The notes beneath the pieces were generated by a model, which saw only the letters and a program-made list of their open reading frames with translations, had not been told where the DNA came from and did not search any database. A stretch of 64,000 bases of DNA, taken from contig NZ_CP061336.1 of assembly GCF_005473905.2 (NCBI RefSeq), positions 1,914,501 to 1,978,500 on the forward strand, in the 5' to 3' direction. A program made the translations under genes and the position numbers. The DNA comes from Ruminiclostridium herbifermentans. Lineage in GTDB: Bacteria > Bacillota > Clostridia > Acetivibrionales > DSM-1351. Positions 33,078 to 48,860 of this stretch are shown piece after piece (within the stretch, counting starts at the first letter, position 1; every line of letters starts with the position of its first letter).

Positions 33078-33347
33078 TTGGCAAATTTATCAGATAAAGA
33101 AATAATGTCATCAATTTTAAATGAAAAAAAATTAGCTGCTTCTGCTTTAACAACTTTGGTACTTGAAAGTTCATGTCCAACATTAAGAAATGATGTTCAG
33201 AGCATTTTGACAAAGACCTTTAATGGTCAAAAGCAAGTTTTTGATATGATGTCACAAAAAGGTTGGTATCCTGTTGAAAATGCTAATCAACAAGAAATTA
33301 CAATGGCACAGCAAAAGGTAAAAAATATCCAATCACAAATACTGTAA
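33078..33347 (+). CDS. CotF family spore coat protein
   Basis: 89 residues from a TTG start behind ATAGGAGGCGAT. It matches the Coat_F ferritin-like helical domain: LSDKEIMSSILNEKKLAAS, then TLRNDVQSILTKTFNGQKQV and the end segment GWYPVENANQQEI. Proteins of this type are packed in the spore coat or inner spore layers. Cotranscribed with the preceding small gene and ended by a long hairpin. Confidence 0.88.
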   Translation: MANLSDKEIMSSILNEKKLAASALTTLVLESSCPTLRNDVQSILTKTFNGQKQVFDMMSQKGWYPVENANQQEITMAQQKVKNIQSQIL

Positions 33348-33839: not shown

Positions 33840-34385
33840 TAACCGAGCTTAGCTATTAGATATATATTACACTCGCAAAAAAGATACCAGTATACATGTT
33901 TTACAACAGACCATAGTAGAACTAACTATTCTTCACCAACTAATTAAAACAAATATCATAAACCAGCATCCCATTTATTTGATTTGTACTTTTGTATATT
34001 ACTTCTTCCTAATTACTGATAAATTATAGCGTAGTAACACTTTATAAATATAAGCATAAAATAGTATTGCAGGGATACGTAAATAAATTTCATTATATAA
34101 TAAAAAGACTGCTAATGATTTTTATTTTATGACTATTTAGCAATTGACACACGACGTCCATACTGCATTGAAAGCCAGAATATATATCAAGTAATTTAAT
34201 GATAAATTCTAGAAAATATAGTCTGATAGTTTTTTACATATATTTGAACTGTCAGATGAAGATATTAGGAATTTGTAAATGACTGTTAATGGCTATATAT
34301 GATTTAACAATCATAGTACTATAAGGAGGGAATCACGTGTATTTAAACATATTAAAAATGTCCCAATGTGACGGAGGTGTGTTAT

Positions 34386-34745
34386 ATGAGCAAAATAATA
34401 GTCACGGGAGGTAAAAAATTAAAAGGTGAGATTAGAATTGAAGGGGCAAAAAATTCAGTCTTACCAATATTAGCTGCTACAATCTTAAATGGGGATGAAA
34501 ATATTATTAAAAACTGTCCAATGTTTAAGGACGTAGAAGTTATTTTAGATATTCTAAGAAGGTTAGGATGTAAAGTAAAAGTAGAAGATAATACAGCCAT
34601 AATAGATTCGACTACAATATCTTCTACTATTGTTCCTGAAAATCTTGCAACAGAAATGAGGTCTTCAATAATTTTAATGGGACCACTACTTGCAAGAGAA
34701 GGAAAAGTAACTATAAGCTATCCAGGTGAATGTGTTATAGTATGA
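34386..34745 (+). pseudogene. murA: murA 5' piece (UDP-GlcNAc enolpyruvyl transferase, N-terminal part)
   Basis: Encodes the first 119 residues, from KIIVTGGKKLKGEIRIEGAK with the substrate-binding Lys-Asn (GAKNSVLP) through EMRSSIILMGPLLAREGKV to YPGECVIV and a stop. MurA makes the first committed step of peptidoglycan synthesis and is normally about 418 residues. The rest is found at 47085-48014. Start ATG behind GGAGGTG is good, and the frame is undamaged up to the break at the catalytic PGGC motif, where GGC reads GEC. Either half of a split protein or a broken gene; a second murA elsewhere would be needed in the latter case. Confidence 0.85.
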
Positions 34746-34748
34746 ATA

Positions 34749-35165
34749 CTAAACAATTGCTTTCAGCTTATTTAATTCTAATTTCATTTTTCTGAATTCT
34801 AATGCTTTTCTTATTTTATTAATAAATACAAGTTTATCTGTCTGAGTAAGTGGTTTTTTGATAAAATCAAAAATGTCATAAGCAAATGCTTTTTCGTAAA
34901 CCTCTTTTTCAGCACTTGAAGCTAAAATAATTGGGATTTCTCTGTACAAATCGGTTTTAGAAAACAGTTCCAAAAATCCAAATCCATCTAGAACAGGCAT
35001 TTCTAAGTCTAAAATAATAATATCAATATTTCTGCTTTCAAGCAAATCTAGAGCTTCTTTTCCATTAAGTGCAGATACAAAATTGACGTGCTCTCTATAG
35101 AGATAGTTTCTGAGAATAGCATTATCCAAAGCGTTATCATCAGTTACAAGAATTGTACTAACCAT
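34749..35165 (-). CDS. single-domain receiver protein
   Basis: 138 residues: one CheY-like receiver with acidic pair TDDN, phospho-acceptor Asp in IIILDLEMPVLDGFG and Lys in FIKKPLTQTD, ending in a helix RKMKLELNKLKAIV. Start ATG at 35165 behind GAAGGAG. The stop lies 3 bp from the stop of the convergent murA piece. The C-terminal helix looks like the beginning of a linker to an output domain, so truncation at the same breakpoint that cut murA is possible; free-standing receivers of this size also exist. Confidence 0.85.
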   Translation of the reverse strand: MVSTILVTDDNALDNAILRNYLYREHVNFVSALNGKEALDLLESRNIDIIILDLEMPVLDGFGFLELFSKTDLYREIPIILASSAEKEVYEKAFAYDIFDFIKKPLTQTDKLVFINKIRKALEFRKMKLELNKLKAIV

Positions 35166-35923
35166 ATTTAACTCCTTCAAAAATATTATAATACCTAGAT
35201 TAAAATTGAAACTTCCAATATGTAAAAATATTGAAAAATTTCGTTATAATCTGGGGGCATAAGCGAGGCGAGAAAAATTCTCACTTCTTTAAAATTTAAT
35301 CGGGTATTCGCCACTTATAAAAGTGGGTGACATTTCCTTACCTCGTTATATTTAAATATTCTATAAAAAGTAGCAAGAACCTTCTTAATTATTTAAAAAA
35401 ATTTAAAGAATTTTTTAGAAAAATATGTACATAGTATACAAAGTTTATTTTTAATGAAGATTTAGCTAATGGTTATAGGCCTACAACTTTAATACAAAGA
35501 TTAATTTTGATTTAACATTACATAAGAAAAATATTATGATATAATACTTAAGATAAAAGTCATAGAGTAGCACCTCTTATTACTAATTTGCATTTAAAAT
35601 TACCCATTTGTGAGGATGGAGCAAAGCTTCGCAAATGTTGTCCGAATACTAATCTTCCACGCACACTTTCGGTACATAAATAAAACCATTGTGGAAGTTA
35701 CGCAGTATTTGAACAATCCATAAAAAGCTAATAGCAGCTTTTTGATATGAGAAGAGAATGATGAATGCACGTAATGTAAACTTCGCATTTTTCAAGCTAT
35801 GAATCGCTGTATATACAGCACACTGCTCAAGCGGTGATAAAAATATTCAAATCAGTATTTTAGAATATTGTTTCTATATTTTAAATACAAAATAGTATTA
35901 TTAGAAAGTAGGATCAAATAGCT
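35166..35923. other. 758-bp gap with repeat fragments
   Basis: Contains the repeat at 35228-35350. A hairpin CTTCCAC/GTGGAAG lies near 35656-35696, and AAACTTCGCA at 35789-35798 matches the ends of the repeat at 42412. A 62-codon minus-strand ORF is without ribosome site. The promoter of the sigma factor gene should be at the right end but none is obvious. Confidence 0.45.
35228..35350 (-). repeat. structured repeat, copy 1
   Basis: On the minus strand it reads AACGAGG...CCACTTTTATAAGTGGCGAATAC. The 20-bp core ACTTTTATAAGTGGCGAATAC matches 49333-49353 with two differences, and weaker similarity extends on both sides. CGAGG/CCTCG at its ends and two internal stems suggest a folded RNA or a mobile fold-back element. 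Confidence 0.45.
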
Positions 35924-36520
35924 ATGAAACTTGAAAACGAAAAACTTCTTTTAAAGAAGGCGCGGGATGGGAATGTTCAAGCATTTGAGGAACTTACCAG
36001 CACTTATTATATAAAGGTATACAATATTTGTTATAGAATGTTGAATAATTCTGAGGATGCAAGTGAGCAGGCGCAAGAAGCGTTTATAAAAGCATTTAGA
36101 TATATTAAAGACTTTCAAGGCAATTGCTCTGTTTCTACATGGTTATATCGCATAGCAACTAATGTGTGTCTTGATTTTTTGAGAAAGAATAAATATAAGA
36201 AAGATATTTCACTTGAGCAAAAAACCTTTGAGGATCTTAAGGTAGAAGATAGGTTGATTTCAAAAAGCCCAGGACCTGAAAAATTGGCAGAAATTAATGC
36301 TCAAAGGAAAGCTATAAATGATGCACTTTCTACAATGAGTGAAAAAAACAGACTAATAATTGTACTTAGGGATTTAAATGGATTTAGCTATGAAGAAATA
36401 GCTGATATTATTCAGGCGCCTGTTGGAACAGTTAAATCAAGAATTAGCAGGGCAAGAGCTGAATTAAGAGATTTATTGTGCAAAGATAAGGAACATTTAT
36501 TTACTGATTACGTCAAATAA
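35924..36520 (+). CDS. ECF sigma factor, SigW-like
   Basis: RNA polymerase sigma subunit of 198 residues with region 2 (EELTSTYYIKVYNICYRML and WLYRIATNVCLDFLRK) and region 4 (VLRDLNGFSYEEIADII and GTVKSRISRARAEL) and nothing else, the ECF layout. SD AAGTAGGAT is modest. It is followed 20 bp later by a membrane anti-sigma protein. Likely a cell-envelope stress regulon; target promoters unknown. Confidence 0.93.
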   Translation: MKLENEKLLLKKARDGNVQAFEELTSTYYIKVYNICYRMLNNSEDASEQAQEAFIKAFRYIKDFQGNCSVSTWLYRIATNVCLDFLRKNKYKKDISLEQKTFEDLKVEDRLISKSPGPEKLAEINAQRKAINDALSTMSEKNRLIIVLRDLNGFSYEEIADIIQAPVGTVKSRISRARAELRDLLCKDKEHLFTDYVK

Positions 36521-36540
36521 TATTGAAGGGAGGGATAACA

Positions 36541-37806
36541 ATGAATTTCTGCAAAGATTGTGATGAATATATTTCGTTATATTTAGATGAACTGTTAGAT
36601 GACGAGACAAAGTCTGACTTTTTAGAGCATATGGAACAATGCAGTCAGTGCTCAGCTAAATTTGAGGATGCTTTATTTTGTGCTGAGTTGTGTAAGGAAG
36701 AACAGGAGATACCGCTTCCAGAGAATTTTTCAGAAACACTACATATACGATTACAACAGGTAAGCGAAAGTACAAATAAAAATAATACACGAGAAAAATT
36801 AGCATTTATTATAAAAAGCAAAAGGCTAATTGCCAGTCTATCAACTGCAGCAGTTCTTGTTATTTCATTATTAGCATATAATTTGATGCCAAGTATGGTT
36901 ACTAAGGACCAATCTACTGCTAATTACAGTGAAACTGCACAAATGGAAATGAGCAAAATGGCAGAAGATACTGATAATTCAGGTGATATTTCTGTAAATA
37001 GTGAAGAGGAAAAAAGCATACAAGCTAAAGCTAACGGTGAAAATAATATATCAAGTACAAATGATACCAAAGAAGCAGCTGCAGGGGGTCCATCAGAAGA
37101 TGCAAAAATTAAAATAACCTTCAGTGAACCAGCAACAGCAGATAAAAAAGAAGATACTATTGCAGACAATAGCTTTAAAATGAGAACTTTTGAAGATAGA
37201 GAGAATACAGAAAGTGGCAGTAAAGATGTGCTGCTAGAAAATGACACACTACAATATTCAATATTAGGTAATAATTTAGATACTAAAGAATATATTTCAA
37301 ATTATTCCGAAATAAAAATGGAGGTATCAGCTGAGGGCACTGAAATTGAAAAATTAAAATTATTAATGAACGATGTTGGTGCAAGTGAATTACATATATT
37401 TGCAGATAACAATATTGTTGAAGATTCTAATATGATTTTTGCTGGAAGCCCAGATAAAGATAACTCAAATGTTTCAACAAATGAGATAGCAGAAGCCTTT
37501 GTTACAGACCCAGAATATATTGATTACTATTTGACATTAAATCAGTATAGTTTGCTTGAAGCTAAGGCAGCAAAATATCATCTGGAATTTAACTCCAAAA
37601 CTGATATAATAAAAAAAGATGTTACTCACATCTATAATGAAATAAATAAAAAGCAAGAGGAAATAGATAATAAGATTACAAATGCATCAAAAAATAATGA
37701 GGATGTATCTGTTTATCAAGCAGAAAAAGAAAGACTTACTGAAGAGTTGAATAAAATAACTAATGAAAAAGAAATAGTTGTTCTCAGGATATATTTGGTC
37801 TATTAA
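36541..37806 (+). CDS. membrane anti-sigma factor with zf-HC2 domain
   Basis: 421 residues. The N-terminal zinc-binding anti-sigma domain has the HxxxC-xxC pattern in FLEHMEQCSQCSAKF, a single membrane segment at about 107-122 follows, then a Ser/Asn/Glu-rich extracellular linker and a C-terminal domain with a coiled coil near 365-410. Start at 36541 with AAGGGAGGG. It should hold the ECF sigma at the membrane until a signal releases it. The extracellular part is typical of envelope-sensing anti-sigma proteins but no specific ligand domain is recognised. Confidence 0.88.
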   Translation: MNFCKDCDEYISLYLDELLDDETKSDFLEHMEQCSQCSAKFEDALFCAELCKEEQEIPLPENFSETLHIRLQQVSESTNKNNTREKLAFIIKSKRLIASLSTAAVLVISLLAYNLMPSMVTKDQSTANYSETAQMEMSKMAEDTDNSGDISVNSEEEKSIQAKANGENNISSTNDTKEAAAGGPSEDAKIKITFSEPATADKKEDTIADNSFKMRTFEDRENTESGSKDVLLENDTLQYSILGNNLDTKEYISNYSEIKMEVSAEGTEIEKLKLLMNDVGASELHIFADNNIVEDSNMIFAGSPDKDNSNVSTNEIAEAFVTDPEYIDYYLTLNQYSLLEAKAAKYHLEFNSKTDIIKKDVTHIYNEINKKQEEIDNKITNASKNNEDVSVYQAEKERLTEELNKITNEKEIVVLRIYLVY

Positions 37807-37891
37807 TATTTATATTTATGTAATAATTATAATAATGGAATTTCACAGTTGACTATAATCTTGTAAGAACGCCCAAGGAGGCTTATTAATT

Positions 37892-40573
37892 TTGGAAAAG
37901 ATAATGATTGTTGACGGTAATAGTATTTTGAACAGGGCTTTTTATGGTCTTAGCAAAACAGCAAACCTTACAAATTCTGAGGGTTTACACACAAATGCTG
38001 TATTTGGATTTATAAATATTTTATCTAAATATTTGGCAGAAGAAGAGCCTAAATATTTATGTGTGGCTTTTGACTTAAAAGCACCTACCTTTAGGCACAA
38101 GGAGTACGATCAATACAAGGCCCAAAGAAAGGGTATGCCACCAGAATTAGCAGAGCAGGTTCCTATTATCAAGCAGGTTTTAGATGCTATGAATATTAAA
38201 AGGGTTGAGGTAGAGGGATATGAAGCAGATGATATATTAGGCTCAATTTCTCTATGCGCAGAAGAAAATGGAATGGAAGCTATTTTATTAACTGGTGATA
38301 GAGACTCTTTGCAGCTTGCTTCAGAAACTACAAGAATAAAGCTTCCTGTTACAAGAGGAAACAAAACTGAAACAGATGAGTATGATTCTCAGAAAGTTTT
38401 TGAAAAATATGGAGTGGCTCCTATTAAGCTGATTGATGTAAAGGGACTTATGGGAGATTCTTCAGACAATATTCCAGGTGTTCCTGGAATTGGAGAAAAA
38501 ACTGCCCTTGATTTAATTAAAAAGTTTGGCAGTATAGAAGGGATTTATGAAAATATAGAATTAGTTGAAAAGAAAGGCGTTCGTGAAAAGCTGGAGGCAA
38601 ATAAGGATCTAGCTTTCCTATGTAAAAGACTTGCTACAATTGAGAGAAGAATGCCTAATATTTGTAACATTGAGCAATATCTTAGAGTTGATTTTGATAA
38701 AGACAAGCTTTATGACATTTTTAAGAAGTTGGAGTTTAAAACCTTTATAGATAAATTTGGTTTAAAAGATAATACTTCTTTACAGCCTTTAGATAATATG
38801 GCTGTGGAACATATAAAAATAAGTTCTATAGTTGATTTAGAACAGTATATTAATGCAATTAAATCAAGCAAAAAAATGACTGTTTATTATCGCATGGATA
38901 TTTCAGGAAGTTTTGTAGATGATCTTTGTATATATGCGTGTGAGGATGATTCATTACCAGCAGTTTTTATATTCTCAAAGGATTTTTCAAGTGAATCAGC
39001 AATAAAAGCTCTAAAGGGCATATTTGAGAATCAAGAAATAAAGATATATGGTCATGACCTAAAGGCGTTTATTAAGCATTTAAAAGCTTCAGGCATAGAA
39101 ATAAATGGCCTTGCCTTTGACACAATGATTGCGGCTTATATATTAGAGCCTACCAGAAGCAGCTATAGGATTTCGGAGTTATCTGAGGATATTCTGAATA
39201 AGACAATAACTCCTGCAGAGAATTTGTATGATAAACACGGTAATAAGCTGCAAGATCTTAAAATAGATTCAAATACAATCTGTGCAACTTGCGCTAAGGT
39301 TATTTTTGAATTGGTTCAGGCACTTACTCCCATTATTAAAGAAAATGAGCAGGAGGAGCTCTTTTATAATATTGAACTGCCACTTGTGGAAGTCCTTGCA
39401 GATATGGAACTATGGGGCTTCAAGGTGGATGTAGAGGGACTTCAGAATTTTTCAAAGGAGTTAGATGGAAAAATCTCTGTTTTGGAAGATGAGATTTATA
39501 TGCTTGCTGGTGAGAATTTTAATATAAATTCTCCTAAACAATTGGGAGTTATTTTGTTTGAAAAGTTAGGGCTGCCTTCAGCTAAGAAAACAAAAACGGG
39601 ATATTCAACAGGTGCAGAGGTTTTAGAAAAGCTATCTCAAAAACATGAGATTATTGATAGAATACTGGAATATAGGCAGTTGATGAAATTAAAATCAACT
39701 TATGCTGATGGATTGTTGACTGTCATTGACAAAAATACAGGTAAAATTCATTCAAGCTTTAACCAAACAGTTACAGCAACAGGAAGAATTAGCAGTACAG
39801 AACCAAATCTTCAGAATATTCCAATAAAGCTGGAACTTGGCAGAAAAATAAGGAAGGTTTTTATTCCCTCTGACAAAAATTATGTACTGCTTGATGCCGA
39901 TTATTCTCAGATAGAATTAAGAGTTTTGGCCCATATTACAGGTGATAAAAATATGCTTGAGGCATTTAATAACAATGAAGATATTCATACCACTACTGCC
40001 TCAAAGGTATTTGGAATCCCTATAAATGAAGTTTCTCCAATTATGAGGTCTAGAGCAAAGGCTGTAAACTTTGGTATTGTATATGGAATAGGAGATTTCA
40101 GTCTGGCACAGGATATTGGTGTTACAAAAAAGGAAGCAAAAAGATATATAGATGAATACCTGAATAAGTACTCCAGTGTTAAAGAATATATGCATGATAC
40201 AGTTGAAAAGGGCAAGGAGCTAGGCTTTGTTACTACTATTTTTAACAGAAGAAGATATCTTCCAGAACTTAAGTCCAGCAACTTCCATATGCGTGCATTT
40301 GGAGAACGCGTTGCTATGAATACTCCAATACAGGGTACTGCAGCAGACATAATTAAAATATCTATGGTAAAGGTTTATAATGAACTTAAAAAAAGGAAGT
40401 TAAAATCAAGATTGATATTACAAGTACATGATGAACTTATAATAGAAACTGAAAAGACGGAGTTAGATGAGGTTTCAAAGCTTTTGAAGTACTGTATGGA
40501 AAATGCAGTGTCATTAAGAGTTCCGTTAACTGTAGATGTTAAGTATGGAGAAACGTGGTATGAGACAAAATAG
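37892..40573 (+). CDS. polA: DNA polymerase I
   Basis: Repair and Okazaki-fragment polymerase of 893 residues. The N-terminal 5'-3' exonuclease (about 1-290) carries DGNSILNRAF and the helix-hairpin-helix GVPGIGEKTA. The middle exonuclease-like domain lacks the DxE motif and is probably inactive for proofreading, as in many Gram-positives. The C-terminal polymerase has motif A DADYSQIELR, motif B RAKAVNFGIVYG and motif C QVHDELIIE. TTG start behind AAGGAGG; an ATG four codons later is an alternative. It overlaps coaE by 14 bp. Confidence 0.97.
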   Translation: MEKIMIVDGNSILNRAFYGLSKTANLTNSEGLHTNAVFGFINILSKYLAEEEPKYLCVAFDLKAPTFRHKEYDQYKAQRKGMPPELAEQVPIIKQVLDAMNIKRVEVEGYEADDILGSISLCAEENGMEAILLTGDRDSLQLASETTRIKLPVTRGNKTETDEYDSQKVFEKYGVAPIKLIDVKGLMGDSSDNIPGVPGIGEKTALDLIKKFGSIEGIYENIELVEKKGVREKLEANKDLAFLCKRLATIERRMPNICNIEQYLRVDFDKDKLYDIFKKLEFKTFIDKFGLKDNTSLQPLDNMAVEHIKISSIVDLEQYINAIKSSKKMTVYYRMDISGSFVDDLCIYACEDDSLPAVFIFSKDFSSESAIKALKGIFENQEIKIYGHDLKAFIKHLKASGIEINGLAFDTMIAAYILEPTRSSYRISELSEDILNKTITPAENLYDKHGNKLQDLKIDSNTICATCAKVIFELVQALTPIIKENEQEELFYNIELPLVEVLADMELWGFKVDVEGLQNFSKELDGKISVLEDEIYMLAGENFNINSPKQLGVILFEKLGLPSAKKTKTGYSTGAEVLEKLSQKHEIIDRILEYRQLMKLKSTYADGLLTVIDKNTGKIHSSFNQTVTATGRISSTEPNLQNIPIKLELGRKIRKVFIPSDKNYVLLDADYSQIELRVLAHITGDKNMLEAFNNNEDIHTTTASKVFGIPINEVSPIMRSRAKAVNFGIVYGIGDFSLAQDIGVTKKEAKRYIDEYLNKYSSVKEYMHDTVEKGKELGFVTTIFNRRRYLPELKSSNFHMRAFGERVAMNTPIQGTAADIIKISMVKVYNELKKRKLKSRLILQVHDELIIETEKTELDEVSKLLKYCMENAVSLRVPLTVDVKYGETWYETK

Positions 40574-41186
40574 GGATTCAATAGTCCTAGGAGTAACTGG
40601 AGGTATTGGAAGCGGTAAGAGTACTGTCTGCAAGATACTCAGTGACTTAGGGGCTGAGATTATTGATGCCGATGTTATCAGCAGACAAATTGTTATGCCT
40701 GGCGAAAATGCACTGATAGAACTAATTAATACATTTGGTAAAGATATTGTTGATGATTTTGGACAGCTAAAAAGAAAAAGATTGTCTGAAATAGTTTTTG
40801 AGGATAGGGATAAGCTTCAAAAGTTAAATAGCATTATGCATAAACATGTGGCTAGGATAATACAAGCTAGAGTAAACGAACTAACTATGCAAAAATCTAG
40901 GATAATTGTTATAGATGCACCAATACCAATAAAAACAGGCTTTTTAGATTTATGTGATAAAGTATGGACAGTATCTGCACAAATGGAACTGCGTATTGAC
41001 AGGATTATTAAAAGAAGTGGCTTGACATATAACGAAGCATTGTCTCGAATTAAATCACAAATTTCTGATGAAGAGTATATTAGCATTGCAAATACTGTTA
41101 TTTATAATGATGGAGATTATTTAAAACTAAAAGAGGAAGTACAAAATGAATTTAACAGTATTTTAGAAAAGTATAAGTGTGACTAA
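40560..41186 (+). CDS. coaE: dephospho-CoA kinase
   Basis: Last enzyme of coenzyme A synthesis, 208 residues, phosphorylating the ribose 3'-OH of dephospho-CoA. P-loop GVTGGIGSGKST (residues 10-21) and the DADVISRQIV motif are diagnostic; the LID region RIDRIIKRSGLT follows. I start it at the ATG at 40560, inside the end of polA, behind GGAG; longer upstream frames are unsupported. The polA-coaE pairing is common in Firmicutes. Confidence 0.95.
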   Translation: MRQNRDSIVLGVTGGIGSGKSTVCKILSDLGAEIIDADVISRQIVMPGENALIELINTFGKDIVDDFGQLKRKRLSEIVFEDRDKLQKLNSIMHKHVARIIQARVNELTMQKSRIIVIDAPIPIKTGFLDLCDKVWTVSAQMELRIDRIIKRSGLTYNEALSRIKSQISDEEYISIANTVIYNDGDYLKLKEEVQNEFNSILEKYKCD

Positions 41187-41234
41187 GCCTCTGTATTCAC
41201 TGATATCATAAGTTATATAAAGGCTTAGTTTTAT
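41183..41234 (+). terminator. probable terminator after polA-coaE
   Basis: CTAAGCCT (overlapping the coaE stop codon) and AGGCTTAG pair over 8 bp across a loop of about 30 nt, followed by TTTTATT. Confidence 0.5.
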
Positions 41235-41252
41235 TGATTTTGAGGTGATTAT

Positions 41253-41831
41253 TTGAAAAAGAAGACTAGGAATAGGCGTAAGGGATTTCATATATTTTTG
41301 CTTTTGATAGTATTTATTATTTTTTCAGTAAACTTAGCAGGATATGCTTTACGACAAATATTCCCAACTAAATATTCCCAATATGTGGAGAAATATTCTG
41401 ATGAATATGGTTTAAATAAAAATCTTGTATATTCAATTATCAAAGCAGAAAGCGGGTTTAATCCTAATGCAATATCCCCTAGAAAAGCAAAGGGCTTAAT
41501 GCAAATAATGGACAGTACTGGTGAGTGGGCAGCAGAAAAAATTAAAATTAAGGATTTTGATAGCAGTATGTTACTAAAGCCAGAGACTAACATTAGAATA
41601 GGGTGCTGGTACATTTCCAAATTAATTAATCAATATGATCAAAATATTGACCTTGCACTGTCGGCATATAATGCAGGCAGCGGAAATGTAGCAAAGTGGC
41701 TGAAAGATACTGATATAAGCAGTGATGGTATAACATTGGATAGAATACCATTTAAGGAAACTGAGAATTATGTAAAAAAGATTAAGAGGTATAATTATAT
41801 ATATAAAAAGCTTTACGGTGAACAAAAATAA
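41253..41831 (+). CDS. membrane-anchored lytic transglycosylase
   Basis: 192 residues: a basic N-terminus KKKTRNRRK, one membrane segment (about 12-32), then a Slt-type domain with catalytic Glu in VYSIIKAESGFNP, the SPRKAKGLMQIM motif and the AYNAGSGNVAKWL motif. It cuts peptidoglycan between MurNAc and GlcNAc outside the membrane. TTG start behind GAGGTGAT. Usually placed beside coaE and polA in clostridia. Confidence 0.94.
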   Translation: MKKKTRNRRKGFHIFLLLIVFIIFSVNLAGYALRQIFPTKYSQYVEKYSDEYGLNKNLVYSIIKAESGFNPNAISPRKAKGLMQIMDSTGEWAAEKIKIKDFDSSMLLKPETNIRIGCWYISKLINQYDQNIDLALSAYNAGSGNVAKWLKDTDISSDGITLDRIPFKETENYVKKIKRYNYIYKKLYGEQK

Positions 41832-41898
41832 TGATATTTTATAGATATAGATATGGATTATTTCATTTTATTATTTCATTTTATAGGGAGGAAAGAAA

Positions 41899-42240
41899 AT
41901 GAAATCAGTGCTATTTGAAAGAGACTTGCTATATCCTACAGATAATGTAATTGAACCTGGAATTATACATGTTGAAATTCTAAATCCAGATAATTCTAAA
42001 ATGCCGGTAATTGTTGAAAGCAAGTCTAGCCATTCAGCTGTTGAGAACATAAGCGCAGTTTTGGATGTATTACAAAAAGATATTTTTGATAGAATTAACA
42101 TTAAAGTATATGAGAACACATCTGTGTATATTTTATTAAATGAATCCGACAAGACTAAATATGGTGATGTTAAATATCTAAAGGTTGTTTATAATGGCGT
42201 ACAAGAATTCACATTGGAGCCATTTGATGAAGGGTTTTAA
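41899..42240 (+). CDS. hypothetical protein
   Basis: 113 residues with an excellent ribosome site (GGGAGGAAAG) and a mixed alpha/beta composition, beginning MKSVLFERDLLYPTDNVIEP. No signal peptide, membrane segment or metal motif. Not recognised. It follows the lytic transglycosylase gene by 67 bp and is ended by a strong terminator, so it is probably in that transcript. Confidence 0.7.
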   Translation: MKSVLFERDLLYPTDNVIEPGIIHVEILNPDNSKMPVIVESKSSHSAVENISAVLDVLQKDIFDRINIKVYENTSVYILLNESDKTKYGDVKYLKVVYNGVQEFTLEPFDEGF

Positions 42241-42286
42241 GAATTGTTTTTAGAAACTATTTATAGAATAAGACACAGCATAGTAT

Positions 42287-42377
42287 AACACCTTATTAAG
42301 ACACTACAATATTAATGATAGATATTTTCTAGTGCTATCATTAATATTGGTATTTATTTGGAGTAAGGTGTTTTTTT
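42287..42377 (+). terminator. long-stem intrinsic terminator
   Basis: The outer arms AACACCTTA/TAAGGTGTT and the inner perfect arms CAATATTAATGATAG/CTATCATTAATATTG give an unusually long hairpin, followed by TTTTTTT. Confidence 0.85.
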
Positions 42378-42411
42378 GTTGACAAAAGTCAGGTTATCTT
42401 GCAAGCTTAAA

Positions 42412-42609
42412 CTCAAACTTCGCAGTTGGAAATTTTGCTTATAGCCTGTTACAGCATTATCAATGGAATGAGCGATAAAATAATAGTATGAAAGAGTTGT
42501 ATGAGAAAAAGCTTGCATTATGGATACAGTTTTGTAATATAAAATAACAAAATCTGTGGCAACATACCATTGATAATTCCACTACACCAATATATTTGCG
42601 AAGTTTGAG
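42412..42609. repeat. 198-bp inverted-repeat element
   Basis: Ends CTCAAACTTCGCA and TGCGAAGTTTGAG are perfect 13-bp inverted repeats. Inner arms ATTATCAATGG/CCATTGATAAT add 11 bp. The right arm is similar to 27900-27957. It carries no gene and lies between a convergent gene pair, filling nearly all of the space after the terminator. Confidence 0.7.
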
Positions 42610-42640
42610 CTGGAAATAAGTTTATTTATAAGTAGTTCAT

Positions 42641-43654
42641 TTATATAGTTCTATTAATTGATTGGGCAACAAGTCTCAATTCATCCATTAGTGTACCGAA
42701 TCTTTCCGGCCTAAGTGATTGAGGACCATCACAGAGGGCTGTTGGCGGATTTAGGTGAACTTCGATTATTAATCCATCAGCACCTGTTGCGATAGCTCCT
42801 TTAGCAAGTGCAGGAACATATTTCCAATTACCTGTTGCATGACTTGGGTCTACTATAATTGGTAAATGAGAAACTTCCTTTATTACAGGGATTGCACTTA
42901 AATCAAGAGTATTTCTTGTCATTGTTTCATACGTACGTATACCTCTTTCACATAGAATTACATTTTGGTTTCCTTCAGCAATAATATATTCAGCTGCCAT
43001 TAACCATTCTTCTATTGTTGCAGATAAGCCTCTTTTAAGAAGCACTGGTTTATTTGTCATACCTACTTCGCTTAGCAGCCTGAAGTTTTGCATATTTCGT
43101 GCACCTATTTGGAAAATATCAGTATATTTATTTACAAGTTCTACATCTCTAGTGTCAACTACTTCTGTTACTAATTTAAGACCTGTGGCTTCACGACCTG
43201 CTACCATTATTTTGAGGCCATCCTCCTCAAGACCTTGAAATGCATATGGGGAACTTCTCGGCTTAAATGCTCCGCCACGGAGTATTTTGGCTCCGCTGTT
43301 TTTAACACTGACAGCAGTGGTGATAAAATCCTTTTCATTTTCAATTGCACAAGGCCCTGCCATTACAACAATTTCATTACCACCGATTTTTACATCTCCT
43401 AAATCAATAATTGTAGGTGTTTGCTGAAGTTCATTGCTTGCCAGCTTGTAAGGCTTCATAATGGGAACTAATGTTTCAACACCCTGCATTTGTGAAATTG
43501 CATGAATATTTAGAAGTCTTTTATCGCCTATAGCACCTATTACTGTTTTTACATCTCCCATTATTGGGTGTGTTTTAAATCCAAGTTCAATTAGCTTGCT
43601 TTCAACATTTTGGATTTCTTGAGCAGTTGCATTTTGTTTCATTACTATAATCAT
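42641..43654 (-). CDS. aroF: 3-deoxy-7-phosphoheptulonate synthase (DAHP synthase)
   Basis: First enzyme of the shikimate pathway, joining phosphoenolpyruvate and erythrose 4-phosphate. 337 residues of the type I-beta group: an N-terminal ACT-like domain ([20 protein letters not shown]) for feedback control, then the barrel with [33 protein letters not shown] and IVDPSHATG metal/substrate motifs. Start placed at 43654, the usual N-terminus, although the strong AGGAGGTG is 38 nt upstream across a hairpin. A T-box leader precedes it. Confidence 0.94.
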
Positions 43655-43700
43655 AATTATATCCATGTCCTGCCAAAAACGACATGGACTTGCACCTCCT
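43655..43700 (-). promoter_or_regulatory. aroF: SD, hairpin and start region of aroF
   Basis: AGGAGGTG (43700-43693) is followed by TCCATGTC, an 11-nt loop and GACATGGA, a perfect 8-bp stem, and then 7 nt to the ATG. If the stem forms, SD and ATG are about 12 nt apart in space. The ATG within the left arm would start a 27-codon ORF in another frame (43685-43602) overlapping aroF. Confidence 0.5.
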
Positions 43701-43845
43701 TCGTTAAGTTAATTCTTTAGGCAAATAATAATGTGTTATGCATTAAAATGGAAAATCCACCCTAATCGCATTAAATTTTAATCACTTTAAATTACATTGC
43801 TATATTTGTTAAAGATTTGTGATGAACCTTGCAGTAGATTATCAA

Positions 43846-44120
43846 ATAAAAAAAGCCCTCATCCCTAATAAAATAGGGACGAAGACTTACATCCACGCGT
43901 TACCACCCAAATTGGTTAAAACAACCCACTCATCCATGTACAGGAATAACTAAAAGCTATCCGATACACTCCTTCTATAACGGGAAGACCCGGTACGACC
44001 TACATATAAGTTTCAGCCAACTGTTCGTGGGAGAACTTCGAATATACTATCTTGCAATGCTTCCATCATCTCATTGCTCGCTGTGAAGACCCATATATTT
44101 TACTTTTCCCATTCATCACA
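43846..44120 (-). promoter_or_regulatory. T-box leader of aroF
   Basis: On the minus strand it has the T-box core TTGGGTGGTAACGCG (43910-43896), a CCCGTTATAGA stem element and a terminator in which GTCCCTATTTTATTAGGGAT lies within the larger stem ending GAGGGC TTTTTTT. TTC occurs twice in the expected specifier region, which suggests phenylalanine; Tyr or Trp cannot be excluded without folding stem I. Confidence 0.88.
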
Positions 44121-44204
44121 TTTCACTACAAATATAATATTAAATAAATATTAACATGTTTTTACAAATAAAGTCAACTACTTTTTTATAATTAGTTCAC
44201 GAGT

Positions 44205-44255
44205 CACGAGATGTAATATATTCTAATTGCGAGACTTGGCTTGAAATTGATGCTA
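44205..44255 (+). repeat. partial copy of the fold-back repeat with its flank
   Basis: GAAATTGATGCTAGAAAT at 44233-44250 is identical to one terminus of the fold-back repeat. The preceding ACGAGATGTAATATATTCTAAT also matches the flank of copy B. The element stops short at the gatD 3' end. Confidence 0.6.
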
Positions 44256-44260
44256 GAAAT

Positions 44261-45007
44261 TTATTTTAATATTCTTTGAATAACAGTGTTTCTTGCTTCA
44301 TTTTCAAAGGTATCATCCAGCTTCCCAAGGGCATCAAAATCAGTATACTTTTGTTTTAATGCTAAAGTCAGTAAATGATCTGTCAGCATAGGATTTTTAG
44401 GAAGAAGGCTTCCGTGAGAATAGGAACAGTAAACATTTTTGTATACCGCTCCTTCATAGCCATCAGTGCCATTATTTCCATTACCAAATAGAACTTTGCC
44501 CAAAGGACGAATATTTTCACCTAAGTAAGTTCTGCCTGAATGATTTTCAAATCCAACAATTTTAAGAGGATTGCCGTTTTCCATTATAAAATTGCTTTCA
44601 AATACAATATTTCCTATCATTCTTTCCTTACCGCCAACAGTCCATAAATCTAGTGCTCCAAGAAACTCTATTTCTTTACCATCCCAGGTCTTGTAGTATT
44701 TACCCATAAGCTGATAGCCGCCGCAAATACATAGAAAAACCTTCATATTTTCAATTGCATTTTTTATTTCAGTGTTTTTTTGCTCCAGAACATCTTTTTG
44801 GATAATTTCTTGCTCATAATCTTGTCCGCCGCCTAAAAAAATAATATCATAATCAGAAGCGTCAAAATTATCTCCAATTGTTACATTTTGCACAGTTGTA
44901 TTAATGCCATGCCACTGAGCACGTTTTTGAAGTGCTAATATATTTCCTCTGTCTCCATAAGTATTCAGAAGATCAGGGTATAAATGACAAATATTTAAAT
45001 CAAACAT
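44261..45007 (-). CDS. gatD: lipid II isoglutaminyl synthase, glutaminase subunit
   Basis: 248-residue class I glutamine amidotransferase domain that releases ammonia from glutamine for MurT. Nucleophile in FLCICGGYQLMG (Cys95) and catalytic His in YCSYSHGSLLPKNP are visible. The substrate-contact arginine is expected in YGDRGNILAL. Its ATG overlaps the murT stop codon (TAATG), so the two are coupled. Together they amidate D-Glu of the peptidoglycan stem peptide. Confidence 0.94.
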   Translation of the reverse strand: MFDLNICHLYPDLLNTYGDRGNILALQKRAQWHGINTTVQNVTIGDNFDASDYDIIFLGGGQDYEQEIIQKDVLEQKNTEIKNAIENMKVFLCICGGYQLMGKYYKTWDGKEIEFLGALDLWTVGGKERMIGNIVFESNFIMENGNPLKIVGFENHSGRTYLGENIRPLGKVLFGNGNNGTDGYEGAVYKNVYCSYSHGSLLPKNPMLTDHLLTLALKQKYTDFDALGKLDDTFENEARNTVIQRILK

Positions 45008-46410
45008 TATTTCCAGAACTCCTTTAAATTAAACTTTTTCTTTAATATACTTCGAATATCAAGCATTGCAGTGTAAGTGGGAAGAATATAGAAACAACCT
45101 CCCGGCGGTGTTTTTTTCAAGCCTTCTTCAATTAGCATGTGATAATCTTTTATTATTCTAATCTTCGAGGTGTCAAGACCACTGTATTTGAGGCGTACAG
45201 CCATATCTTCTCCTCTTACACCTGATGTAATCAGTCCGTCAATTTTATCGGATACATTATTCAACTGTTCAAAATCAACATCCCACAGCCATGAAATATC
45301 AGTTCCATCAGCTAAGTTGTCATTAATTAAAAAGGCAGTATTTAACGATTGATTTTCAAGGGCTAAAAAGCTGAGAACCTGATTAAAACCCGTAGGATTT
45401 TTAACAAGTATTAGCTTAATAGTCTTGTCCATAACATTTATTGATTCCATTCTGCCAAAACCAGATTCAAAGGATTGCAGTGCATTTGAAATAGTTTCAA
45501 CCTTATAACCTAAAGCAAGTCCGCAAGCAGCAGCTGCCATTGCATTGTAAATGTTGTATAAACCAGGCAGATTAATTCGAGTAACAAACTCATTATTTTC
45601 TTGCAGCAAAGTGGAGGAGCATTTGCATTTTATAGTAGAATAGCTGCTGCCAGCTTCTTGTATTTCAATACATTCTAAATGAGCATCTGGCCTTTTGTAT
45701 CCGCAATTAGTACAGTAAAAGCCTCCTAGATGTCCATAAATACGATTTGAGTATTCATATTTATTTTTGCATTGGATACAGAACATAGCATCGGAATTCA
45801 TATTTTCTGAAGTAGCCTGATATGCTTGTTGATTAATTCCATAGTAAATTACTGGTTTTGCAGTAGCTATTCCCAGGGAGGCACACATTGAGTCATCTGC
45901 ATTCAAAATTAAAGCAGTATTATCACCAATTCTTTCAAGACCTGACTTAACTGCATTTAGTGTAGAATAAAGTTCACCGTATCTATCTAATTGATCTCTA
46001 AAAAAGTTTGTAACAATAACTGCCTTTGGTGTAAGATGCTTTGTTACTTGATTGAAGGCGGCTTCATCGCTTTCAATGAGGGCAACCTTGTGTTTAGGTT
46101 TTCCACTAATGGAAACTGCTTGGATGAATAAAGTTGTTATTCCGCTTAATAGATTAGCGCCAGATTTATTTGTTATGTAATCTACATTGTTGTTCTTCAG
46201 AATTTCTTCTACAATCCTTGTTGTAGTAGTTTTGCCATTAGTGCCAGTAACCATTATAATCTCAAAATTTGATGCAATTGATTTTAGAATATCTGGGTAA
46301 AGCTTAAATGCAACTTTTCCGGGCAGAGTAGTACCGCCTCTCTTCAAAAGGTGCAATAAAAAAATGGTTAGTTTGGATGCAATGATAGAGATAACTTGTC
46401 TTATTTTCAT
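45007..46410 (-). CDS. murT: lipid II isoglutaminyl synthase, MurT subunit
   Basis: 467-residue Mur-ligase-like ATPase. Walker motif VTGTNGKTTTTR, central ligase domain with an inserted four-Cys zinc ribbon (CIQCKNKY...FYCTNCGYKRPD) and a C-terminal DUF1727 domain with LVKNPTGFNQ. It activates the D-Glu carboxylate so that GatD ammonia can be added. Start placed at ATG 46410; an ATG four codons upstream lies in a hairpin arm. The gene pair lies in the 12-kb segment between the two murA pieces. Confidence 0.94.
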   Translation of the reverse strand: MKIRQVISIIASKLTIFLLHLLKRGGTTLPGKVAFKLYPDILKSIASNFEIIMVTGTNGKTTTTRIVEEILKNNNVDYITNKSGANLLSGITTLFIQAVSISGKPKHKVALIESDEAAFNQVTKHLTPKAVIVTNFFRDQLDRYGELYSTLNAVKSGLERIGDNTALILNADDSMCASLGIATAKPVIYYGINQQAYQATSENMNSDAMFCIQCKNKYEYSNRIYGHLGGFYCTNCGYKRPDAHLECIEIQEAGSSYSTIKCKCSSTLLQENNEFVTRINLPGLYNIYNAMAAAACGLALGYKVETISNALQSFESGFGRMESINVMDKTIKLILVKNPTGFNQVLSFLALENQSLNTAFLINDNLADGTDISWLWDVDFEQLNNVSDKIDGLITSGVRGEDMAVRLKYSGLDTSKIRIIKDYHMLIEEGLKKTPPGGCFYILPTYTAMLDIRSILKKKFNLKEFWK

Positions 46411-46459
46411 AGTATTATCCATGCCACAGATTTACGTGTAAAATGGATTTGTCCTCCTT
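46411..46459 (-). promoter_or_regulatory. murT: SD, hairpin and start region of murT
   Basis: AAGGAGG (46459-46453) is followed after 4 nt by ATCCAT, a 20-nt loop and ATGGAT (46422-46417), then 6 nt to the ATG. The linear distance is 42 nt, but the stem would leave about 10 nt. The order and part of the text (AACGAAGGAGG, TCCAT, ATGGATA) are shared with aroF. Confidence 0.5.
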
Positions 46460-46843
46460 CGTTATAAACATAGTGCTAAGTTATAATTTACTTTCGTATA
46501 TATAAATTCCATTTGGTATGGGAAAATTATCAATGTTTTTAACAAGAAAATTAGTTTGTTAAGCAATTACTTAACTTTAAATAAACTTTCCCACACTTGT
46601 ATTTTCAATTACTAAAGTAATAAGCATATTAATATTATATAAATATAATTATCATTAAATGGTAATATTTAAACATTTCAATTACACATTATATCATATA
46701 AATAAGCTTATTTATGAATTTTTCAGATAAATTTAGTATATTGGCTAATTAGTACTCCCGTACAAACTTATCTAAATGGAATTATTGACATTTACATTCA
46801 AAATATCACATTTGCTGGGCAATATTAAATTGTGATATAATAA
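46460..46843. other. gap between murT and the repeat array
   Basis: AT-rich; no ORF. The only recognised element is the 28-bp repeat at 46752-46779. A promoter for murT should be on the minus strand here, but none stands out. Confidence 0.4.
46752..46779 (+). repeat. 28-bp dispersed repeat, copy 2
   Basis: Starts GTACTCCCGTACAAACTT and continues ATCTAAATGG, matching 33486-33513 with two differences in the same orientation. Confidence 0.7.
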
Positions 46844-47084
46844 GCTCGAAAAGATAATTTGTACATACATTGTGCTTTTTCGAGCAGCAAAAACCACAAG
46901 TGGTTTTTGGAATGTAGAGATATTTGTGCGAACATAGTGCCTTTTCGAGTTGTTGAGATATTTATACTTACATGGTGCTGTTTAGAGCGGTAATAACCTC
47001 ACATGGTTTTTGCAGTATAGAGATTTTTGTGCGAATATAATGCTTTTTCGAGTTGAAAAACCCACAAGTGTTTGTGCCAATATA
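46844..47084 (+). repeat. array of two-hairpin interspersed repeats, copy 2
   Basis: The first unit is intact: GCTCGAAAAG/CTTTTCGAGC, then a perfect 10-bp hairpin CAAAAACCAC-AA-GTGGTTTTTG (46888-46909). Three or four degenerate units follow, each recalling TTGTGCGAACATAGTGC, TTTTCGAG and AAAACCCACAAG. The last, TTGTGCCAATATAGT, ends at the first recognisable murA codons. Confidence 0.75.
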
Positions 47085-48014
47085 GTAACACATTCAGGTG
47101 GGTGTGAAATAGGCCCAAGACCTATTGATTTACACTTAAAAGCACTTAGAAGTTTAGGCGCCAAAATAAATGATACTAATGGCGGGTACATAAGTTGTGA
47201 AACTGACGGATTAAAAGGTTGTGAAATATATCTCGATTATCCTAGTGTAGGAGCAACTGAAAATGCTATGATAGCTGCAGTATATGCTCAAGGTGATACT
47301 ATTATCAGAAATGCAGCAAAAGAGCCGGAAATAATAGACTTACAGAATTTCCTTCAAAAAATAGGTGCAAAAGTTACCGGAGCTGGCTCAAGCGTTATTA
47401 GGATAAAGGGATACGAGAAAAAATTAACTAAGGTAGAACATACTGTTATTCCAGATAGAATTATATCTGGAACATATATGGTGGCATCTGCTATAACAGG
47501 TGGTAATGTAACTATTAAGGACATTATTCCTGAGCACATTATTTCAATTGCATCGGTATTAAGGGATATTGGGTGTCAGATTAATATTAAGAGAAATGAT
47601 ATCCAAGTAATTTCTGGAACTAAGTTAGATGCAATAGAAGTAATCCGAACCTTGCCATACCCTGGATTTCCAACTGATATGCAGGCTCAGATGATGGCAT
47701 TATTAACTTTATGCAAAGGCACAAGCATTATTATTGAAACTATATTTGAAAGCAGATATAAGCATGTGGATGAGTTGCTGAAAATGGGAGCTAATATCAG
47801 AATAGATGGACGTATGGCTGTTATAAAAGGTGTTAACCGACTTAATGGTGCACAGGTAGTAGCAAGGGATTTGCGTGGAGGTGCGGCACTGATTTTGGCT
47901 GGTTTGGCTGCGCATGGTGAAACTACTATTACTGGTCTTGAACATATTGACAGAGGCTATTATAAGGTTGAAGAGAAACTGTCTGAATTAGGGGCAGAGA
48001 TAATAAGGATATAG
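47085..48014 (+). pseudogene. murA: murA 3' piece (UDP-GlcNAc enolpyruvyl transferase, C-terminal part)
   Basis: Encodes about 309 residues from VTHSGGCEIGPRPIDLHLKA, which holds the catalytic Cys, through GAEIIRI, the normal MurA end. The frame is intact and continues upstream into repeat DNA to a TTG at 47010, but no ribosome site is present. Added to the piece at 34386 it makes one complete MurA. It stands in the ancestral position directly before ftsQ (6 bp), so this side is the original locus. Could be a translated half of a split enzyme or a dead fragment. Confidence 0.85.
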
Positions 48015-48020
48015 ATACAA

Positions 48021-48860
48021 ATGAAAAATACTTCAAATAATGCCGATTACAAAAAATCAATAAATTTAAAAAGAAAGCGTGCGAGAGCAAAAAGGATCAG
48101 AAGGTTATTGCTTACAATTATTATTGTAACTGCTGCTATTATTTTTGCGCGCTCATCTTTTTTTATAGTAGATGAAATTAAAGTAACAGGCAACAAGAAG
48201 TATTCGTCTAACGATATAATATTTAATACTGGGCTTATAACAGGACAAAATGTATTTAAAATGTTAGGAGAAAAACCAAAGAATTTAATATCCTTTAGAT
48301 TTAAAGATAGGGAACAAAATGTTTATGAGTCCATGCCATATGTCAAATCTGTAAGTGTTAGACCTATGTTACCTAAAGCAATAAGAATTAAAATTCAAGA
48401 GAGAACTCCTTTTGCAATTCTAGAATATAATGGGACAAGCATATTGATTGATAAGGAAGGATATGCTTTAGAAACCATTAAAAATCCTGACATAAAAAAG
48501 AAGTATTTTAAAATAATAGGTACATTGGTGGATAGCTATAATTTGGGACAAGAGGTAAAATTTAAAGGGGAATCTCCATTACAGTTAGTAATATTATTTT
48601 GTGATACACTATTAAAAAGTGATAAAAATTCAGATATTAAGTTATATGATAAATTTACTTCTATTAAAGTTTCGGATATAAGTAGTGTAACTGCTAATTT
48701 TGAAGGAAGAATAGATGGGGAATTTGGAGACTTAGATAACCTTGAATATGATTTGAAAGTGTTTAAACAAATATTTACAAACAATATTACTAAAAATCAG
48801 AAAGGTACATTAGTTTTTTCAACTGGCAGCGAGCACCCATATTTTGTGCCTAAGGATTAG
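48021..48860 (+). CDS. ftsQ: cell division protein FtsQ/DivIB
   Basis: 279 residues: a very basic cytoplasmic N-terminus (KSINLKRKRARAKRIRR), one membrane segment at about 29-46, a POTRA domain starting FFIVDEIKVTGNKKYSS, and the FtsQ/DivIB domain with PYVKSVSVRPMLPKAIRIKI. It is part of the FtsQLB complex that activates septal wall synthesis. It begins 6 bp after the murA 3' piece, without a strong own ribosome site (AAGGATATAG), implying that translation or transcription from murA matters for it. Confidence 0.92.
   Translation: MKNTSNNADYKKSINLKRKRARAKRIRRLLLTIIIVTAAIIFARSSFFIVDEIKVTGNKKYSSNDIIFNTGLITGQNVFKMLGEKPKNLISFRFKDREQNVYESMPYVKSVSVRPMLPKAIRIKIQERTPFAILEYNGTSILIDKEGYALETIKNPDIKKKYFKIIGTLVDSYNLGQEVKFKGESPLQLVILFCDTLLKSDKNSDIKLYDKFTSIKVSDISSVTANFEGRIDGEFGDLDNLEYDLKVFKQIFTNNITKNQKGTLVFSTGSEHPYFVPKD

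Follow-up and report, generated by a model that had tools for sequence, protein, structure and literature searches.

The 64,000-nucleotide stretch of the Ruminiclostridium herbifermentans chromosome analyzed here (the window; positions 1914501-1978500 of a single-contig assembly of 4,817,678 bases) carries the gene for the cell wall synthesis enzyme MurA as two separate pieces, an N-half and a C-half. With a probability of roughly 0.8, these represent a third, sporulation-specific murA that is stored in two pieces and reassembled in the mother cell through site-specific DNA recombination by LSR1, a large serine recombinase encoded outside the window; joining would probably take place only in the cell that builds the spore. 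The evidence that carries this reading comes from sequence and comprises the split and its conservation, missing start codons in the C-halves, the anatomy of the cut sites, the co-occurrence of LSR1, and a promoter motif of the sigma-K type.

From this evidence we infer that LSR1 acts on the cut sites, that the mother cell is where this happens, and that the product has a role in spore peptidoglycan. In the proposed mechanism, LSR1 would be produced by the mother cell from its gene elsewhere on the chromosome and would pair an attL site at the end of the N-half with an attR site at the start of the C-half. Strand exchange at a central GG would then yield one open murA frame and a circle or, where the halves run in opposite directions, an inverted segment instead of the circle. 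In the window, a 12,372-bp circle would be released, carrying polA, coaE, and other genes. The joined murA-ftsQ would be read from a sigma-K-type promoter before the N-half, and the product would serve to provide cell wall precursor for the spore.

The third murA and its two halves

The N-half (34386-34745, + strand) is an open frame that encodes residues 1-119 followed by a stop codon, as supported by the open reading frame (ORF), matches to the MurA model and structures, and relatives. The remainder of the gene occupies an open frame at about 47085-48014 on the same strand, in which the stretch from the proposed crossover to the stop codon (47097-48014) is the C-half, with no credible start of its own and with the catalytic Cys codon at 47103-47105. 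The N-half aligns to positions 1-119 of the murA model and the C-half to 111-416; with respect to E. coli-type MurA structures, the two cover 1-117 and 112-416. A preceding reading of the sequence alone had described murA as two open pieces on one strand that overlap by about ten diverged codons, with the second piece preceding ftsQ. The ORFs and the model and structure matches confirm the two pieces, the overlap is confirmed as well, and ftsQ (48021-48860, + strand) indeed lies directly after the C-half. Across 14 N-halves and 15 C-halves, the columns for the catalytic residues (Lys22, Asn23, the Cys115 loop, Asp305, Asp369-Leu370-Arg371, and Arg397) are invariant.

Given that the source genome contains two further MurA genes, both intact, of which one adjoins ywmB and the other yycI/yycJ (plus AroA), the split gene is a third murA. 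In a 34-protein tree, the third murA forms one group (100/100) of 21 split and 5 intact representatives, apart from both paralogues. The intact form is located between murG and ftsQ in genome G045 and has ftsQ behind it in G017, G021, and G025. In split genomes, ftsQ is found behind the C-halves, and murG stands beside 28 of 50 N-half loci, a count in which some genomes occur twice and a few loci are intact. A compact arrangement is seen in G084 (L395, G084:C47:1-4183), where murG, the N-half, gatD and murT on the other strand, and the C-half follow one another with only 2.2 kb between the halves; this order is perhaps close to the original one.

When 58 genomes of the order were searched for the N-half and the length of its frame, the frame was short in 46, full-length in 8, and without a match in 4; in many of the 30 relatives searched initially, a short N-piece (about 1-115) and a C-piece (about 108-417) are located away from each other. 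In one-contig pairs of the window's genus, about 10-12 kb separates the halves, and over all genomes the distance ranges from 2.2 to 528 kb, the latter in G012, where they lie in opposite orientation, as they likewise do in G132 and G266. Because the short N-half frame is found at the same place in 46 of the 54 order genomes with an N-half, chance and misassembly are excluded, and a recent break was rejected in view of the same split in so many relatives at varied distances. The dN/dS ratio is 0.020-0.053 for the N-half (five pairs) and 0.020 and 0.071 for the C-half (two pairs, three others being saturated). By these measures, the split is old and selected, with both halves under strong purifying selection.

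These results bear on several possibilities raised by the sequence-only reading. An assembly artefact is contradicted by the recurrence of the split in many assemblies at such different spacings. Rescue by a second murA stands insofar as two intact paralogues exist, but both halves are still under purifying selection. A rearrangement or insertion that broke the gene had been envisaged as well; what is found is not a break in one gene but a split that is old, conserved, and linked to a recombinase gene outside the intervening DNA. Rejoining at the DNA level, by excision in the window and by inversion in some other genomes, is the option favored by the evidence.

Cut sites, LSR1, and sporulation signals

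The ends of the N-halves and the starts of the C-halves have a core in common, CCNGGTGGNTGT or a near variant. In the window, it lies at 34722-34733 (central GG 34725-34726) within an attL-like site (34702-34750, + strand) and at 47094-47105 (central GG 47097-47098) within an attR-like site (47074-47122, + strand), the outer limits of both being approximate; recombination from GG to GG is predicted to place the intervening DNA (34727-47096) in the circle. The outer arms behind the N-half and before the C-half are inverted repeats of each other, and the reconstructed excision site forms a palindrome about 48 bp long. Over 21 genomes, pairing in the excision site reaches 15.5/25 at the GG center, compared with 4.5-9.0 at 21 other centers; the joined-gene side also peaks at GG (10.4), where the scores of the N and C sites before recombination are 8.8 and 9.8. 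The arms covary, since in 15 families represented by one genome each, own pairs match at 11.4/19 versus 9.4 for shuffled pairs, with a maximum of 11.0 in 2000 shuffles. Constraint switches sides at the same center: the N-half retains the Pro codon and drifts at the codon after the first Gly, and the C-half retains Gly-Gly-Cys and is variable at the Pro position, so the catalytic Cys of the joined enzyme would come from the C-half. Joining at the core in silico restored the frame in all 21 pairs. Sites of large serine recombinases have a non-palindromic central dinucleotide. They are expected to span about 50 bp, as stated in parts of PMC5595907. The murA cut sites present just such a palindrome around a non-palindromic GG, and with their shared core, GG center, and covarying arms, both look like serine recombinase attachment sites.

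These genomes contain many large serine recombinases (24 matches in the source genome), among which one orthologous family, LSR1, stands out. It possesses the domains PF00239 (Resolvase), PF07508 (Recombinase), and PF13408 (zinc-ribbon), all above cut-off, and its gene (G000:C1:1867862-1869430) is located about 81 kb upstream of the N-half. A search with a uniform threshold (E <= 1e-75) was positive in 44 of the 58 order genomes. All 41 LSR1-positive genomes with an N-half call are split, versus 8 intact and 5 split among the 13 LSR1-negative genomes with a call (Fisher p = 1.2e-6, a statistic that ignores kinship). A second, lenient search covered the five split LSR1-negative genomes and, as the only intact genome, G045, together with two controls; it detected a fragmented or frameshifted LSR1 in G044, G027 (N-part only), and G041, whereas G019, G051, and G045 yielded no close relative. 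With these finds added, 44 of 44 LSR1-positive genomes are split versus 2 split and 8 intact negatives (p = 4.3e-8), a combined count biased toward the favored reading because the lenient search covers mainly the split exceptions, for which reason the uniform search is preferred.

The association was carried beyond the order by a class-wide search of 391 genomes, in which the best 3 candidates per genome were scored, giving a lower bound. At least 25 genomes carry LSR1, 6 of them outside the order, and in this forward test all 6 have a short-frame N-piece and a C-piece starting at the same place (the C-pieces of G084 and G286 are interrupted by the contig end). As a rough base rate from a non-random sample, the 80 N-half-like loci that scored best in another collection include 78 usable ones, 9 of them with short frames; five of the nine are in the order, and one of the other four is G266 itself. 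Two loci outside the order, L304 (Alkaliphilus pronyensis) and L311 (a draft genome), carry a murA N-half that stops right after Pro-Gly-Gly.

Sporulation-type motifs are present upstream of both genes. For C. difficile, parts of PMC3789822 give a sigma-K promoter with the -35 box AC and the -10 box CATATAAT. The motif AC[AC]-N14..16-CATANNNT occurs within 400 bp upstream of the N-half at 40 of 40 split loci and at all 4 intact loci analyzed (45 loci were tried, 41 of them split, and G266 was unparsed), and Markov shuffles of the split loci give a mean of 2.2 and at most 8 in 300. It was seen by eye before the pattern was set, and a first sigma-K pattern matched 25 of 34 loci, 40/40 being reached after widening to 400 bp and loosening. 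Among other murA genes it occurs in front of 2 of 21, and among C-halves in front of 2 of 22. The match before the N-half in the window is at 34037-34062 (+ strand); given that the whole 64 kb holds 19 such matches on both strands, a single match means little, and it is the conservation that constitutes evidence. Upstream of LSR1, the SpoIIID-like motif WWGGACAA (B. subtilis form) is found in 18 of 30 cases (shuffles 1.5, at most 6); KRTAACARK was tried as a SpoIIID box in the same place and dropped as unenriched.

Competing explanations and known rearrangements

A number of observations weigh against reassembly by LSR1. The joined N/C junction was not seen in any split genome in a pattern search of 58 genomes, whose three matches are G045 and G011, both LSR1-negative with an intact gene, and G038. 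Excision in the window would take polA and coaE off the chromosome, a loss that only a terminal cell could tolerate. In G019 and G051, murA is split, yet LSR1 was not found there even by the lenient search, and arm symmetry is weak in G132 (5/19) and G010 (8/19). Seven of 23 C-halves do have one or more in-frame starts, at unconserved places and in one case next to a weak match to a ribosome site. Before LSR1, the C. difficile SpoIIID consensus given in parts of PMC5025042 is unenriched (2/30, shuffles 1.4). Finally, the sporulation gene spoIVA occurs in five of the 8 intact genomes tested by tree or place, which means that sporulation can do without the murA split; being present in 56 of the 58 genomes, spoIVA does not discriminate, and G045, intact and LSR1-negative, also lacks it.

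As regards the G038 match, the C-half of this genome (L360, G038:C66) has a left arm that differs from those of its relatives and resembles N-side sequence; it was considered as a joined gene and rejected, as stop codons lie just upstream.

An unlikely alternative that retains the recombinase is reversible phase variation, in which LSR1 would join and re-split murA during growth instead of joining it a single time in the mother cell. A directionality factor can drive serine recombinases both ways (parts of PMC5025042), and a small conserved ORF, a mere candidate for such a factor, was seen by eye just before LSR1 in 10 of 30 genomes, with none of this pattern in the loci of the window's genus save one in G010. 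However, every LSR1-positive genome with a call is in the split state, the sigma-K-type promoter is present at every split locus parsed, and the joins would involve the removal of polA and coaE here and inversions of up to 528 kb in some other genomes.

That the halves are translated apart and assemble into an active two-chain MurA, as the sequence-only reading had allowed, is very unlikely, although both halves are conserved with all the expected catalytic residues and remain as far as 528 kb apart. In 16 of 23 C-halves, the stretch from the upstream stop to the Gly-Gly-Cys motif is devoid of ATG, GTG, and TTG, and no conserved start exists in any; in the window, the sole in-frame candidates, a TTG and an ATG, lie inside a copy of a dispersed repeat, without a Shine-Dalgarno match. 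The N-half frames, for their part, continue past the cut into sequence unrelated between genomes (23 frames, with stops 118 to 184 codons from the start). Because of the missing starts and the unrelated tails, the halves are not simply two genes, and the two-chain model would also leave the covarying arms and the link to LSR1 unexplained.

Decay, with the halves as fragments of a dispensable paralogue being lost, would fit the two intact murA paralogues and the dispersed repeat before the C-half in the window, but low dN/dS in both halves, the identical cut across families, and the invariant catalytic residues make it highly improbable. RNA trans-splicing of the two transcripts, which would also account for the missing starts and for the same cut at any distance, deserves hardly any credence, as palindromic covarying arms are the mark of a DNA recombination site, a recombinase co-occurs, and the receiver gene on the opposite strand, ending 4 bases past the N-half stop in the window, leaves little room for an intron part.

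Rearrangement of sporulation genes by serine recombinases is known (parts of PMC5025042, PMC4191935, PMC5595907, and PMC10747680). The reassembly of murA by LSR1, predicted here from sequence, would resemble the sigK/skin system, in which, according to parts of PMC5025042, a large serine recombinase joins the halves of a mother-cell gene at att sites during sporulation (SpoIVCA in B. subtilis, and CD1231 with the directionality factor CD1234 in C. difficile) and which in B. subtilis is under sigma-E/SpoIIID control. In contrast to skin, whose recombinase is inside the element, LSR1 resides elsewhere on the chromosome, and the DNA between the murA halves consists of ordinary genes of variable length, with some pairs needing inversion. 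The gin element in gerE of B. cereus ATCC10987 is similar in that non-phage DNA splits a mother-cell gene, which GirC and GirX rejoin; unlike the murA split, which is order-wide and beyond, gin, an island of 28.6 kb that encodes its own recombinases, belongs to some strains of B. cereus and B. toyonensis (parts of PMC5595907). Excision likewise restores a sporulation gene in spsM/SP-beta of B. subtilis (parts of PMC4191935) and in yin in yabG of C. botulinum (parts of PMC10747680), but these are prophages or prophage-like and bring their own recombinase. Two hallmarks of the skin/SP-beta/gin class, a gene split in the vegetative genome and a shared core that restores the frame, are found in murA, whereas none of the ORFs of at least 80 amino acids in the intervening DNA at 34745-47085 is a recombinase.

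The murA case differs in its recombinase in trans, the absence of any remaining element, its wide spread, and its target gene: the published rearrangements found for spore formers are prophages or islands with their own recombinase, and the murA cut is kept across an order without an element. No report of a split or rearranged murA was found in the open-licence literature, a scope that does not extend to bioRxiv. If the reading is true, programmed DNA rearrangement would have become the switch of an ordinary gene, one for a cell wall synthesis enzyme, and annotation would be taking such halves for mere fragments; the long-standing question of why a broken gene is kept in the germ line would be made directly testable.

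The cut in LSR1 and features around the loci

In seven genomes of the window's genus, LSR1 is itself cut, at about residue 131/132. The missing N-part is found elsewhere (86-93% identical); in the four one-contig pairs, it shares the strand and is situated 14-31 kb upstream. Pseudobacteroides cellulosolvens (G044) has this cut too, with a width of about 38 kb and the C-part in two frames, and by eye the parts of cut LSR1 have a shared core and inverted arms, as in murA. In G002, the cut is a 14-kb insert (G002:C1:2509288-2525158, L363) with a large serine recombinase of its own. Provided that murA depends on LSR1, the two rearrangements would have to take place one after the other there. It is an evenly balanced question whether these parts form a domesticated two-tier program. 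In such a program, LSR1 acting in trans would use excision or large inversion to assemble a spore-specific murA in the doomed mother cell, even where as much as 528 kb separates its halves, and the cut in LSR1 itself, at one codon in at least 8 species, would make a DNA-level cascade that orders spore development. The G002 insert also contains, as judged by eye from translations, a histidine kinase and response-regulator-like pair and long RHS-like repeat proteins.

With respect to origin, a serine recombinase lies in cis about 1 kb behind the N-half in G051 (39% identical to LSR1, first part) and in the unrelated draft genome with L311 (47%), which suggests that the system began as an integrating element whose recombinase was aimed at this murA codon. 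At present, LSR1 looks like a settled chromosomal gene from its neighborhood, as apgM is within 1.5 kb in 13 of 30 loci, rpoN in 9 of 30, and spoIVA 1.1-1.3 kb downstream on the same strand in ten genomes. Phage integrases were rejected as the source of LSR1, since the 649 phage records matched are all below 60% identity, the 12 best listed at 25-31.5%. A small second fragment that matches LSR1 residues 199-245 was noted behind the intact LSR1 of the source genome (L133:5565-5704; G000:C1 about 1871064-1871203).

The gene spoIVA is itself in two pieces in G002, G003, G005, G006, G007, and G009, one covering residues 2-405 and the other about 399-492. Both pieces lie on one strand with 5 to 40 kb between them, and spoIVA may be another sporulation gene rejoined by excision.

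Within the window, the intervening genes, named from the sequence-only reading and translations, are those for a receiver, a sigma factor and an anti-sigma factor, polA, coaE, a lytic transglycosylase, aroF, gatD, and murT, the receiver domain being supported by a domain test. The gatD and murT genes (44261-46422, - strand) are divergent from the C-half and adjoin it, an arrangement found within 2.5 kb of the C-half in 19 of 34 C-half loci examined. Just before the attR-like site, two tandem copies, 81% alike, of a dispersed repeat with 49 matches genome-wide occupy 46857-47055 (+ strand) and seem to have replaced a sigma-A-like promoter that is found before the C-half in 11 of 22 relatives. 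Upstream of the N-half, a gene of the spore-coat type encodes a Coat F domain protein at 33078-33347.

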